A DNA stretch of 64,000 nt from Ulota crispa (Eukaryota > Streptophyta > Bryopsida > Orthotrichales > Orthotrichaceae), in NCBI GenBank assembly GCA_963920765.1, contig OY987244.1, positions 1,738,501-1,802,500 on the forward strand, read 5' to 3'. Below the pieces are notes generated by a model. That model worked only from the letters and a program-made list of their open reading frames with translations, made no database searches and was not told the DNA's origin. Both the position numbers and the translations under genes were made by a program. This document shows positions 15,135-64,000 of the stretch, in pieces (the stretch's first letter is position 1; each line of letters begins with the position of its first letter).

Positions 15135-15450
15135 TGATGACGAGGGAACGGGAAGGGTGACGAGGGAACGGGGGAAAAATGACGAGGGAACGGGGGGAAA
15201 AATGACGAGGGAACGGGGGGAAAAATGACGAGGGAACGGGGGGAAAAATGACGAGGGAACGGGGGGAAAAATGACGAGGGAACGGGGGGAAAAATGACGA
15301 GGGAACGGGGGGAAAAATGACGAGGGAACGGGGGGGAAAATGACGAGGGAACGGGGGGAAAAATGACGAGGGAACGGGGGGAAAAATGACGAGGGAACGG
15401 GGGGAAAAATGACGAGGGAACGGGGAGGATGGCGAGGGAACAGGAAGGAT
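15135..15450 (+). repeat. 23-bp G-rich minisatellite in PGM promoter, about 14 copies
   Basis: Unit GACGAGGGAACGGGGGGAAA plus AAT. Thirteen GACGAGGG starts and one degenerate copy can be counted, with very little divergence except at the edges. It begins about 110 bp upstream of the probable 5'-UTR donor. Each unit has one G3 and one G6 run, so two units together could form a G-quadruplex on the plus strand, which is the template strand for PGM. Confidence 0.9.
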
Positions 15451-16007: not shown

Positions 16008-16423
16008 GGGAATTGATATAGGCACATTGGGGTTGATATATGCACACCCCCCGTGGGATAAATTTTAGATTTCTATCATCAAGAAGTTGAATTTGAGAAC
16101 TTTGAATCCGAATTGGACTAAGAGACCTTGATTTAATTTGGAACCATAAAAAAAAAATTGTGTTTGAACAAAACCCAAGGAAAAGCTTAGCTAGGGGGAA
16201 AAGTATTACTTTTAATTTTGTTTGTCCAAAAAGATAAGCTTTTTCAATGGTGTTGTTCTAATGCAACTTTTTTTATGGTTCTAAAGACTAAATCAAGGTG
16301 TTTCAGTCCAAATCTAAATTCAAAATTCTCAATTTTCAACTTTTTGATGGTAGAAATCTAAAATTTAACCCTCAAAGGTGGGTGTGCATATATCAACCCC
16401 CTAGTGTGCCCATATCAATTCTC
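16008..16423. mobile_element. foldback MITE, GGGATTGATATG family, copy 1
   Basis: A near-complete palindrome of about 416 bp flanked by an exact 8-bp duplication TATTCTTA (16000-16007 and 16424-16431). The ends carry two tandem copies of a TTGATATATGCACACCC-like motif, followed by arms matching TAGATTTCTATCATCAA and its inverse. The centre is AAAGCTTAGCT. Confidence 0.88.
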
Positions 16424-35217: not shown

Positions 35218-36444
35218 TTACAAAACACTGCTTCCTACGATGTTCCCTTCATCTGTAGGCACTGTTTGGGAACCTCCATTTCTCATTTTGGCACCAGCTC
35301 TGCTTAAGTGCCTTCTTGTACGTTTTGTGATAGTATGGCCGAGATTTTCATCCGGAATTGTATTGGCCTCCTCTGCTCCTTCTAATACCAAATTATCATC
35401 TCCTTGAACTCTTGCACTGTCTATGCAAACCCGCTCTTGGTTGTTCAAACAGCTTCCACCATGACCCACTGGACAACAAAGATTTCCATGTTCTTCAGCG
35501 CTTCCTAAGCCATGTCCACGTCCACTTCCAGCTCGACCTTGTAACCTTCCACCAGATCTTCCCCAACTAGGCATCAGAATCTCTTGTAAAACCACATTCC
35601 TACCGATTGATGCCACCGGAATTGGATCCTCTCCAATTTCCCTTTGCGGTCTAAGTCCAATGAAATCCTTGTCTTCTCCCAAGTGGAATAAACTGTCATC
35701 CATGTGGTCATTAGTATTTGGAACAATTCTTTTACCAAGCACTTCCTTTCGCAACACAATTCTTCACCTGGGACTGTCATTTGCTTCAGAGTAAAATACT
35801 TGCTCGACACGTTGAGGGAAAGTGAAGCTATCAGCACATACGTAACTAGGTCTCCTCTCATAGTTAGCCAAAGTGAAACCCCATTTATCTCTTTTAATTG
35901 TTGCATTCCCTCCTACATAATTTGCTTTCACAAAGTTGCATACTAGAACTACAAAACAATGACGTCTATAATTTAACTCTAATATTTCCTCTATATGCCC
36001 CACGTATTCAACATCCGCATTAACTAGATGCAAGTCGCGCCTGCCATTTCTACATACCTGCCGGAATGTAACCGCAACTCCACTGTTAGCAATTTTGAGA
36101 TTTTGTACAGTGCTCACTGTCCTATAAAGCGTGCCATAAGCTATTAAGGATTTGTAAGCTATAGCTACCGGGAGAGGTCCCCTAGCCGTGTCCACCACAT
36201 CATCTTTGACAACCACACCGGATCTTCTGTCTCTACTGACTTCATTTGATATCCAGTTTGCAAAGTCTGGTAACATGCGTAGTTTGTCAAGAAATATGAT
36301 ACGCCCCCTCCTTTGCCCTTGACGATGTTTTGTTCTGTAGTCATTTCTTTTAGCTTCTCGGTCTAAAAATGCTTGTTGGTACCTCTTGCACAGAAGACGT
36401 GGATTCCACTTTGTGTCAATGCTTATAGCTATAGAATAGTTCAT
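35218..36444 (-). pseudogene. CACTA tnp2 gene, DUF4216 and C-terminal part
   Basis: From 36444 the frame reads RYQQAFLDREAKRNDYR, then LRMLPDFANWISNEVS, NADVEYVGHIEEILELNY, and KWGFTLANYERR...RVEQVFYSEAND, the pattern of DUF4216, which follows DUF4218 in plant En/Spm transposases. One TGA sits after SPR (near 35760), where the family has Trp. The frame then continues to 35218 with a Gly/Arg-rich tail. It ends about 490 bp from the left terminus of the CACTA element. 36448-36640 in the adjoining frame may also be coding. Confidence 0.75.
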
Positions 36445-59850: not shown

Positions 59851-60585
59851 AATCCCTCTCCAATCCTGCACTCTAGATTTGAGGCTTTCACCACACACTA
59901 TTGAACCCATAGTGGAGCAGTGAATGCCACTTGCACAAGCAAATTTTGCCACGTGTCAATTGCTAAGGTACTTTGGGATGGTTGGGATTGGGACCATTGA
60001 GTGCCACTATGGAAACACATCCAAGCATTTTCAAGGTAAGTCTAGAGTCGCTAATAGGAACCCTATGAATTGCAACTTTGCCCTTAATATAAAATGTTCT
60101 ACAATATTGTTTTCCACAAGAGTTACATTCCATGATAGCTTGTTGAAATACTAACCCTACAAAAGAAATCTGAATTTCCAAGACCTTGAGGTACACCAAA
60201 CCCTTAAACAATTGGGTACGGGTATATCTACCTTGATATCTAAACTCCCACATTTCTTGATGGGTTTTAATAGAGCTTTTCCACCCTCGCCCCACAGCGA
60301 CGTATGTGCAGTAAACTGAAGGGGCGTTTACACAAGTGTATGCAGAAGCAGCCTTTTGGGGGCTACACACGCATGCACACCCATGCATACGCATTTGTGT
60401 TTCCACTTGTTGCACACACATGGGAAAGTAGAAGGTAATTCCATTTTGTAAATTCATTGGATGCATGTTAAGAGTTGCTTCCACTTTGAATGCCTATAAT
60501 TTCTGAAAATAAAAACTCTTAATTCACAATGTGTTCCAATTAACTTTTAAGTGAATTAAATGAAATTTCAACTATGATTGTTTTT
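59851..60585. other. no confident gene
   Basis: A 173-codon minus frame (59963-60484) is open but has no recognisable domain and passes through a CACACGCATGCAC-like simple-sequence patch (60360-60415). Confidence 0.4.
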
Positions 60586-61990
60586 GGGAATTGATATGTG
60601 CACATCCGGGATTTGATACATGCACACCTAGGATTTGATATATGTACACCCCGGGGTTTGATAATATGCACACTTGTGATTGATAATATGCACACCTGTG
60701 ATTTGATAATATGCACACCCATGATTTGATAATATGCACACCCATGATTTGATAATATGCGCACCCATGATTTGAAAATATACACACTCGTGATTTGAAA
60801 ATATGCACATCCGTGGTTTGATATATGCACACCCGGGGTTTGATATATGCACACCCAAGGTTTGATGTATGCACACCGATGAGTTTGATATATGTACTCA
60901 AAAGGGTTTGATATATGCACACGAAGGGGTTTGATGTATGCACACCCGGGGTTTGATGTATGCACACCCGGGATTCGATGTATGCACACCCGGGGCTTGA
61001 TGTATGCACACCCGGGGTTTGATAATATGCACACTTGTGATTTGATAATATGCATACGAAGGGGTTTGATATATGCACACAAAGGGGTTTGATATATGCA
61101 CACAAAGGGGTTTGATATATGCACACAAAGGGGTTTGATGTATGCACACCCGGGGTTTGATATATGCACATCCGAGGTTTAATATATGTACAACCGGGGT
61201 TTGATATATGCACACCCGAGATTTGATAATATGCACACCGATGAGTTTGATTTATGTACACAAAAGGATTTGATTCACGCCCACGAAGGGGTTTGATATA
61301 TACACACCCGGGATTTGATGTATGCACACCCGTGATTTGATAGTATGCACACTTGTGATTTGATAATATGCACACCCGTGATTTGATAATATGCACACCT
61401 GTGATTCATAAAATGCACACTTGTGATTTGATAATATGCACACCCATAATTTGATAATATACACACTTGTAATTTGACAATATGCACACAAAGAGGTTTG
61501 ATATATGCACACCCAGGATTCGATGTATGCACACCCGGGGTTTGATGTGTGCACACCCAAGGTTTGATATATGCACACTCGGGGTTTGATATATGCACAC
61601 CCGGGATTTGATATATGCACACCAGGGAGGGGTAAATCTTAGATATTTATCATCAACAAGCTAATTTGGAAAATTTGAAATCAGATTTGGATTTGGAAAC
61701 CTTAGTTTGGTTTAGAACCACAAGAAAGGATACATTTGAACAACACCCATTGGAAAAATTTAGCTAGGGGCCAAATTATTACTTTTATCTTTATTTGTAA
61801 AAAGAAGTAAGCTTTTCCACCGGGTGTTGTTCAATTGTATCTTTCTTTGTGGTTCTAGACTAATTCAAGGTCTCTAGAACCAAATGTGAATTCAAATTTT
61901 CCAAATTTAGCTTGTTGATGGTGAATATTTAAGATTTACCACCTCCTCCATTGAGAGTATATCAAACCCCAAGGCACATATCAATTCCCT
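60586..61990. mobile_element. foldback MITE, copy 5, with a hugely expanded left end
   Basis: Starts GGGAATTGATATGTGCACA and ends GGCACATATCAATTCCC, flanked by TTGTTTTT at both sides (60578-60585, 61991-61998). From 61625 rightwards it is a normal family member (GGTAAATCTTAGATATTTATC, a GGGTGTTGTTCAATT core and the inverse arm). To the left, in place of two terminal motif copies, there is about 1 kb of them. Confidence 0.85.
60596..61622 (+). repeat. TTGATATATGCACACCCGGG minisatellite, several dozen copies
   Basis: The units are 21-23 bp, mainly TTTGATATATGCACACCCGG, TTTGATGTATGCACACCC and TTTGATAATATGCACACC, with GTGATT or GGGGTT joints. Variants are grouped in local runs, which suggests repeated local duplication. 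By spacing there are roughly 45-50 copies. Open frames through it merely follow the repeat. Confidence 0.92.
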
Positions 61991-62076
61991 TTGTTTTTTT
62001 GTGCAATTCATATTGGATGTTCCATATTTGGTATGCATTGTAATATAGAGTATACTATAATCCGGCAAACTAAATA

Positions 62077-62103
62077 AACAAATAAATAAATAAATAAATA
62101 AAA
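62077..62103 (+). repeat. (AAAT)n microsatellite
   Basis: About six AAAT units. 62190-62300 is also rich in ACATAAATATATA-like repeats. Confidence 0.75.
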
Positions 62104-62523
62104 ACTAAAATTTTAGAGATCCCTTTTAGTGGAATTTTGTTTTGTTTTTTCGCAAACTTGTGCAACCTACACAAGGGTGAGGACTTAAAGAGTTAATACA
62201 TATAATAACATGAATATATATAAACATAAATATATACATGTGAATACAAATATTAATAAAAACATGAATATAAACGTAAATGCAATGATATGTATAAAGA
62301 TAAAATTAAAGATAATCATGAATACAACATATTTTTGTGTTTTTGTTTTTGTTAAATGGTAAATTAACTAAAGTAACAAAGTAAGCATTCAATATTAGTT
62401 ATGGTTATCAATACTTTTTGTCAAAAATAACACAATTTATACTCCTTTACCTTGTATATTTGTTTTTCAATTTACTATAAAAAAACCCCCACATTGTCAA
62501 GATCACAAGTCATTATAATTAAA

Positions 62524-63187
62524 TTAACCTCTAAATGTGCAAGGCTTTTTGAGCTTCTTGAAATCCCATGAAAATGAACACTCAACCAACTTTTTTGTAA
62601 ATTTCATCAAGTTTCTTTTAAATGTAACCGTACACATTTAAACTAAACATATTAGCAATTGCATAAAAAAGTAAAACAAAATATTATCACTTATAGTTTG
62701 AAAAATTATAATGGTCAAATAAGAGGGTGTTAAAATTGCAAAAGTGACTATAAGCCTTCCAATCCTCATTTCACATGTCAAATCTAAGAAATTGGTCACC
62801 AAAAAAGTATGAGGTTTAAACCTTTAAGGTCGTTACATGTCTAACTTTAATTAATGTACGGCTTTCAAAATCTACTCCTATTTTTTTAGATTAACTTCTA
62901 ATGTAGAACTTGTCTCCAAGCTTTATTGTATTTGAGGCTCATTTTGAAGATTTTCTAACACTAAAAACCCCAAGATTGCAATGCACAATGCACACCCTTG
63001 TACAAAAATTTGAGTATAAAAATTCCACATTCATTTTCAAAATCAGATTTTTATTGTTGAAAATATACTTCAAAACAAACTTGTACTGAAAAAAAAACTA
63101 CTAAAAAATAATGATTCAATAAGGTTTTATTCAATTTCAAAGTTTTGTAAACACCCAAATTGGGGGCTTTGGGCATTCAAGGGTTAA
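62524..63187. mobile_element. TIR element, TTAACCTCTAA ends, about 660 bp
   Basis: TTAACCTCTAAATGTGCAAG at the left pairs with TTTGGGCATTCAAGGGTTAA at the right. Same family style as 21203-21749. No coding content. Confidence 0.5.
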
Positions 63188-63374
63188 GTAGAAACATGTA
63201 AGGGTGAATTGGGAGGTGGAGCCGCTTCAAAAAGTTACCCAAGGACATGTAGCGCTTCAAGATCCTCCCCTAAAATTATGTTGCACATCCTTCGTGCTAC
63301 CGCATACACATAAAAGTGGTAGCAAGATTGCACACCCATTGCCTCACTCCAAAGTTATAGGATGCCCAGTTTAG

Positions 63375-63729
63375 TGCTCCCTCAGTCCCAAAATGATCTT
63401 CTTGTTGCCCTTTATTTAGTGTCCCAAAGTGATCTTCTTGTTGGAGGAGGAAGGGAGCTAGTGACACTTGCACATAATCCAAAAGCATGAGCATGCTAAC
63501 CAATCCCATGCCATGAAGCGAGTGGCCACCGGTGCTCTTCAAAAATGCCTCAAAAATTCAATTTTCAAGCACTTTGAAACCACACTTTGAAAACTAATTT
63601 GAAACTCAAAATTTCAGAACAGTAGGAGGACATCAAACTCTATTCATAAGTCAATGAAAAATGGTTCTTTTTGAGCTTAATCTATAACATTTTGTGTAAC
63701 AAGAAGATCATTTTTGGACGGAAGGAGTA
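63375..63729. mobile_element. Stowaway-like MITE, about 350 bp
   Basis: CTCCCTCAGTCCCAAAATGA with TCTTCTTGTT at the left pairs with AACAAGAAGATCATTTTTGG with ACGGAAGGAG and TA at the right. A second copy of the left-end motif (GTCCCAAAGTGATCTTCTTG) follows at about 63420. Confidence 0.82.
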
Positions 63730-64000
63730 TTGTTTTTCAGTGCACACGCGTACGCACACTGTCGTGTAAACGTCCATGAGCCACAGTGTTGTCAGCCTCG
63801 CTTGGAAATGCTCCAATGCGTCCAAGTGGCGCCATATCAGCCGTCTCTCGGGGCTGCTACAGGTCCTCAAATGTGGGGCCTAGAAGCTTGTCGGCCGAAG
63901 CATGGACGAAAGAAGTAGTTGCTAGCAAGCAATTCGCGCGCAGTCTTCGCTTGTTCTCTTCGCCATCGCCACAAGTTCACTACGGCAGTGCCATGAATTC
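63730..64000. other. GC-richer end of window, possible promoter or 5' region
   Basis: Composition shifts to about 50% GC with sequence resembling a host gene's 5' region. An ATG occurs near 63992, too close to the edge to judge. No frame is recognisable within the window. Confidence 0.3.

Follow-up and report, generated by a model that had tools for sequence, protein, structure and literature searches.

Within a 64,000-nucleotide stretch of Ulota crispa DNA (hereafter, the window), a foldback transposon ends on its right side in two short tandem units and on its left side in a minisatellite of 46 such units. We consider it highly probable that this asymmetry followed a single insertion. A short, putatively noncoding foldback DNA transposon with a tandem pair of 22-bp motifs at each end would have entered a larger repeat once, the composite would then have been copied to at least 22 places, and the left pair would have grown independently at several of these, with new units arising between the outer and the inner member of the pair. 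The growth step itself may have been replication slippage or unequal exchange between neighboring copies; in the window copy it would have led to 46 units, after which the array would have diverged through point mutation and multi-unit duplication.

RESULTS AND DISCUSSION

Architecture of the window element

The features of the element and its surroundings are collected in Table 1. The sequence-only reading had described a left pair grown into several dozen copies next to a right end of normal form, and this description holds, as segmentation gave 46 units against two and Tandem Repeats Finder (TRF) reported, for 60586-61628, a period of 23, 46.2 copies, 81% matches, and a score of 873. With units within about 10 to 100 bp and tens of copies, the array has the size of a minisatellite. 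The terminal inverted repeats and the palindromic body that define a foldback family are both present, the body of the window element reaching a local self-complement score of 312 of 628. In several cases, copies of the same insertion that lack an array measure 412 to 425 bp. According to the open reading frame list of the window, two frames of 209 and 274 amino acids traverse the array.

Table 1. Coordinates of the foldback element and of the larger repeat that contains it (positions in the window)
Feature	Position	Strand	Description
Larger transposon-like repeat with the foldback element inside	60320..63776		Ends AGGGGCGTTTACAC and GTGTAAACGTCCA (other copies: CGCCCCA)
Left target-site repeat TTGTTTTT	60578..60585		9-bp reading ATTGTTTTT from 60577
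Left-end array	60586..61628	+	46 full units of 38 types; length 22-23 bp, in a few 24 bp
Foldback element body	61634..61938		Imperfect palindrome; borders approximate
Right end	61939..61990	-	Two units GGGAATTGATATGTGCCTT, GGGGTTTGATATACTCTCAATG (read on the - strand) plus inner tail
Right target-site repeat TTGTTTTT	61991..61998		9-bp reading TTTGTTTTT from 61990
Insertion within the larger repeat (right part)	63377..63727		Ends CTCCCTCAGTCCC... / ...GGACGGAAGGAG

The borders of the array are informative about where it grew. The terminal signature GGGAATTGATATG is still present in the first unit, and the last unit continues into the inner tail GGGAGGGG, so that growth took place between these two. 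The dissection into units that had been proposed along with the first reading resolved 38 types among the 46 units, and adjacent units are more similar to each other than in shuffled order (p=0.0005). Multi-unit stretches that resemble one another were also seen along the array, by inspection rather than against a chance expectation.

The 8-bp repeat that had been noticed outside the array is present on both sides, and it can be read in two ways: as an exact 8-bp repeat, if the right end has one extra terminal T (position 61990), or as a 9-bp repeat with one mismatch. Elsewhere, exact 8-bp repeats flank, for example, loci L023, L032, L038, and L048 and the window copies at 16008 and 16703, and exact 9-bp repeats flank L035, L044, L051, and the second copy at L033; the comparison reports near-matching pairs only and therefore gives no denominator for these examples. 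A 9-bp duplication is characteristic of the Mutator-like superfamily and an 8-bp duplication of the hAT superfamily. Because the flanking repeat is inherited with the surrounding repeat, its survival alone is weak evidence that growth came after insertion.

Comparison within the window covered four other foldback copies. Two units per end are found in the copies from 16008 and 16703; those from about 29887 and 52744 belong to a diverged type whose ends show no clear second copy of the motif.

One insertion copied together with its surroundings

The larger repeat around the window element is bounded by inverted ends, AGGGGCGTTTACAC on one side and a sequence like GTGTAAACG(C/T)CC(C)A on the other. 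Outside it, TGA is found at the left end in eight of nine aligned copies and at the right end in all eight. The further insertion in its right part is missing in the seven other copies of the right-edge alignment; we take it to be Stowaway-like.

Both flanks of the window element recur in copies elsewhere in the genome, and the same foldback insertion was found at no fewer than 21 further places, that is, in 22 filled copies including the window. The left-flank search returned 43 matches after scoring 40 of the 48 first candidates, and the right-flank search returned 47 matches after scoring 40 of 4,349 candidates; since only part of the candidates were scored, the copy number of the nested insertion is a lower bound. 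Nine weaker left-flank copies were fetched in addition. Two of these (L075 and L077, counted among the 22) are filled with a two-unit form of the element that is older and more diverged, and the other seven (L070 to L074, L076, and L078) are empty sites, which hold one copy of the target site, no element, and no target-site duplication. Four of the empty sites carry the identical string ATGATTGTTTATTTGTACAATTC, from which L074, L076, and L078 differ slightly. Together, the common flanks and the empty sites show that the element entered the larger repeat once and that the composite was then copied.

Recurrent growth of the left end

Among the 22 filled copies, the left end consists of two units in 15, of which 13 are uninterrupted (L002, L007, L008, L060, L062 to L065, L067 to L069, L075, and L077). 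The remaining two, L042 and L066, have a common insert of roughly 190 bp that splits the second left unit. Expanded left ends have 3 units in L005, 4 in L003, 5 in L061, 6 in L004, 7 in L006, 10 in L059, and 46 in the window. The right end, which was measured in 18 of the 22 copies, has two units everywhere except in L064, where there is one, and never more than two; expansion is thus found in 7 of 22 left ends versus none of 18 right ends (Fisher p=0.011). In L004 the outermost unit is of the interior type and lacks the terminal signature, so the border unit of this copy has been lost or overwritten.

A tree was built from 625 columns of flank and body sequence, the flanks (about 1.6 kb at full length) being covered in part for 13 of the 22 copies. 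Its resolution is weak (of 19 inner branches, 2 are starred and 13 are open). On this flank tree the state of the left end, expanded or two units, changes at least five times, growth and contraction being inseparable copy by copy. The approximately unbiased (AU) test rejects a tree with the seven expanded copies in one clade (p=6e-5), and it is safe to state that expansion of the left end had more than one origin. The units themselves also tend to stay with their array: interior units have their nearest relative in their own array at a rate of 0.72, versus 0.45 with shuffled labels, and the same measure without the window gives 0.71 versus 0.19. The array of L006 contains a private dimer, and that of L059 contains private ATGTG/ACGTG units. 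The graded unit counts, the rejected single origin, and the private variants argue that growth came after insertion, was recurrent, and was mostly local. Slippage or unequal exchange would fit this picture, given that growth lay between border units that differ from each other (except in L004), that some variants are private, that neighbors are alike, and that similar stretches recur along the array.

The proposal that the terminal pair of the window copy expanded where it stood, once the element had inserted, and gave rise to a minisatellite is therefore sustained by the 21 paralogues, the two-unit left ends of 15 of the 22 copies, the seven empty sites, and the near-private unit variants described below. 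What does not survive is its status as the sole case, as growth turned out to be recurrent in the foldback family.

Probable local origin and age of the window array

Two diagnostic unit variants tie the array to its place. The commonest odd unit, GTGATTTGATAATATGCACAC, has eight matches in the genome with at most one mismatch, and all eight lie inside the window array; the odd junction variant GCACACAAAGGGGTTTGATATATGCACAC has four of its five genome matches there, the fifth being located elsewhere and one base off. As these variants are exclusive or nearly exclusive to the array, it was most likely built and diversified in place. Import from a different array of the family, through gene conversion or recombination, might be considered instead, since the canonical unit also occurs in arrays elsewhere in the genome, but we regard this as improbable in view of the two variants and of the greater homogeneity of 16 other arrays, which require 2 to 20 spanning-tree edits versus 83 in the window. 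Slightly less probable still is that the element was inserted with a long array from which the short copies derive. Long arrays do occur elsewhere in the family, but the two-unit state of 15 of the 22 copies, which include the most distant ones (L075 and L077), already largely refutes this order of events. Least probable of all is an assembly artefact; the array rests on one assembly, yet 38 distinct types among 46 units make inflation or collapse by the assembler unlikely, and the flanks agree with those of 21 paralogues.

A more serious competitor concerns when expansion began, and the timing of growth on the window lineage is something that we infer. The window copy belongs to a tree group with L003, L006, L059, and L002 (support 94/96), and it is possible, though clearly the less likely reading, that the left end was already expanded in the ancestor of this group, that L002 shrank back to two units, and that the array of 46 was partly inherited. 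Four of the five members are expanded, and a single origin for these four is compatible with the AU test (p=0.22). Moreover, the minimum spanning tree of the window array contains at least 64 substitutions and 16 gaps. With about five substitutions set aside as an estimate of the difference between founder units, about 59 are left, compared to about 44 expected at full length over the end branch of 0.042 (Poisson p=0.015). This excess suggests either that the array predates its divergence from the closest sister copies or that it mutates faster than its flanks. Against an ancestral expansion stand the private dimer of L006 and the private ATGTG/ACGTG units of L059, the clustering of units by array, and the fact that no diagnostic unit common to the arrays of the group was noticed in an informal look at the unit listing. 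Independent growth at several places, the window among them, is our preferred reading.

Candidate causes of growth and of the left bias

Three candidate causes were considered and dropped. An idealized three-unit repeat of the canonical motif folds better than its shuffled versions (z=-3.0, and -2.8 on the other strand), but hairpin-driven growth as a general cause was rejected, as the other expanded unit types gave z values of -1.7, -1.1, and 0.1 and the two-unit ends gave 0.8 and 0.2. A greater likeness of the starting units does not account for the left bias either: identity at a shift of 22 is 17 to 20 of 28 in six left ends versus 18 to 19 in three right ends, with the right end of L008 as an outlier (identity of 9, and 8 bp longer). 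Finally, a fixed preferred end throughout the family was rejected by the array-bearing bodies: of 15 compared (without L030), eight match best in one orientation and six in the other, and L031 is nearly tied; the body of L029 could not be aligned in this comparison. Given that these bodies have no common orientation, the left bias appears to be specific to the nested insertion.

Relation to known systems

That terminal repeats can seed satellites is already known from the Tetris and Galileo elements; the present set is an unusually clear instance. In Tetris (TIR-220), a foldback transposon of Drosophila virilis whose terminal repeats contain tandem units, the number of terminal units varies (three or four in two allelic copies) and kilobase-size satellite-like arrays result, as in our case (PMC4079207). 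The Tetris unit is, however, about 220 bp long and growth was seen there in one allelic pair (PMC4079207), whereas here there are 22 paralogous copies of one insertion and empty sites; the two systems are compared by description. In Galileo group F of Drosophila mojavensis, the direct tandem repeats within the terminal repeats likewise expand and contract, and the two ends of a single copy have different numbers of them, but the repeat measures about 210 bp, reaches up to three copies, and belongs to an element of the P superfamily, and long arrays are not described in the portion of the source available (PMC3573991). Xenopus supplies two miniature inverted-repeat transposable elements (MITEs), Xstir and miDNA4 (Hikosaka and Kawahara 2004; Scalvenzi and Pollet 2014, both as described in the available part of PMC12628747), whose tandem repeats vary in copy number and can yield satellite arrays; there the repeats are internal to the MITE, whereas here it is the terminal motif itself that is repeated (PMC12628747). 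Terminal repeats and MITE-internal repeats have both been presented as sources of satellites (PMC6947457, PMC9659126, and PMC12628747, in the parts available), and the available portion of another source reports tandem MITE arrays (PMC2872659).

The uncommon part of our observations is their replicate design, in which one insertion was copied many times and empty sites are preserved. No comparable set was recognized in the literature searched, which was partly available and lay mostly outside subscription journals, and a text search with three unit-sequence strings found no occurrence in print. The beginnings of satellite DNA are usually inferred from finished arrays. The nested insertion instead offers replicate starting points, with a recognizable two-unit ancestor, empty sites, and both intermediate and long arrays, so that within one genome growth, homogenization, and decay can be measured and the influence of how many starting units there are, and how alike, can be tested.

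Arrays elsewhere in the foldback family

The family consists of short elements present in high copy number. Its inner motif has 956 matches in the genome (at most three mismatches; up to two matches per intact element), compared to none for a reversed control pattern, which together with the size of the array excludes chance. Of 20 loci fetched from this list, two (L040 and L041) stood out in a first count by clearly longer ends; they are copies of the nested insertion, at the places of L006 and L004. The search for arrays, in which 39 of 636 candidates were scored, led to 30 loci: the window, 13 on contig C6, and 16 others. The claim of exactly two units at either end in every full copy thus has to be given up, as long arrays are numerous genome-wide.

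At least 16 other elements have arrays of about 14 to 43 units at one end. An outermost unit of the AATTGATAT type is kept in 15 of these 16 arrays (the exception being L031), and the opposite end is short in the eight that were paired at both ends (L011, L023, L026, L027, L031, L032, L036, and L038). Their greater homogeneity suggests that they are probably younger than the window array. In L080 (C5:14096250-14097200) both ends carry an array, one of nine units and one of ten; each is nearly homogeneous, and the two are built from different unit types. Family members with long arrays at both ends had been named by the sequence-only reading as evidence that would count against it; L080 has this form, but its unlike units favor separate local growth at either end over an ancestral long-array form.

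The largest array lies on contig C6, from about 14627388 to beyond 14638731 (L010, L012 to L022, L025, and L079), where the 22-bp unit reaches the size of a satellite, with at least 467 units followed by at least 1 kb more. An exact 20-base core of the unit has 928 reverse-strand matches in the genome, 480 of them in the examined stretches of C6. The inner motif was not found in these C6 loci, whose outer border lies outside the examined stretches. We lean toward the view that two-unit ends are general, end-independent seeds of tandem repeats, and that one genome holds a series from 2 through 3 to 10 and 14 to 46 units up to an element-free satellite several hundred units long, including homogeneous, apparently young arrays as well as the diverged array of the window.

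Some loci form subfamilies with common flanks beyond the usual end of the element (L011, L026, L027, L031, and L037; L043, L046, L049 to L052, and L055). Loci with both flanks read show these as inverted matches of each other, as would be expected from an extended terminal repeat or from an element at the center of another palindrome.

Other repeats in the window

A tandem array with a 23-bp unit, clean at 96% matches over 12.7 copies, occupies positions 15137-15425 of the window, within minus-strand open frames of 168 and 214 amino acids. Also on the minus strand, a frame at 40779-41441 matches Pfam Transposase_21 (E value of 1.6e-18) and positions 35767-36444 give a weak match to DUF4216, under the curated cutoff; we presume that both belong to the remnant of a CACTA-type transposon.
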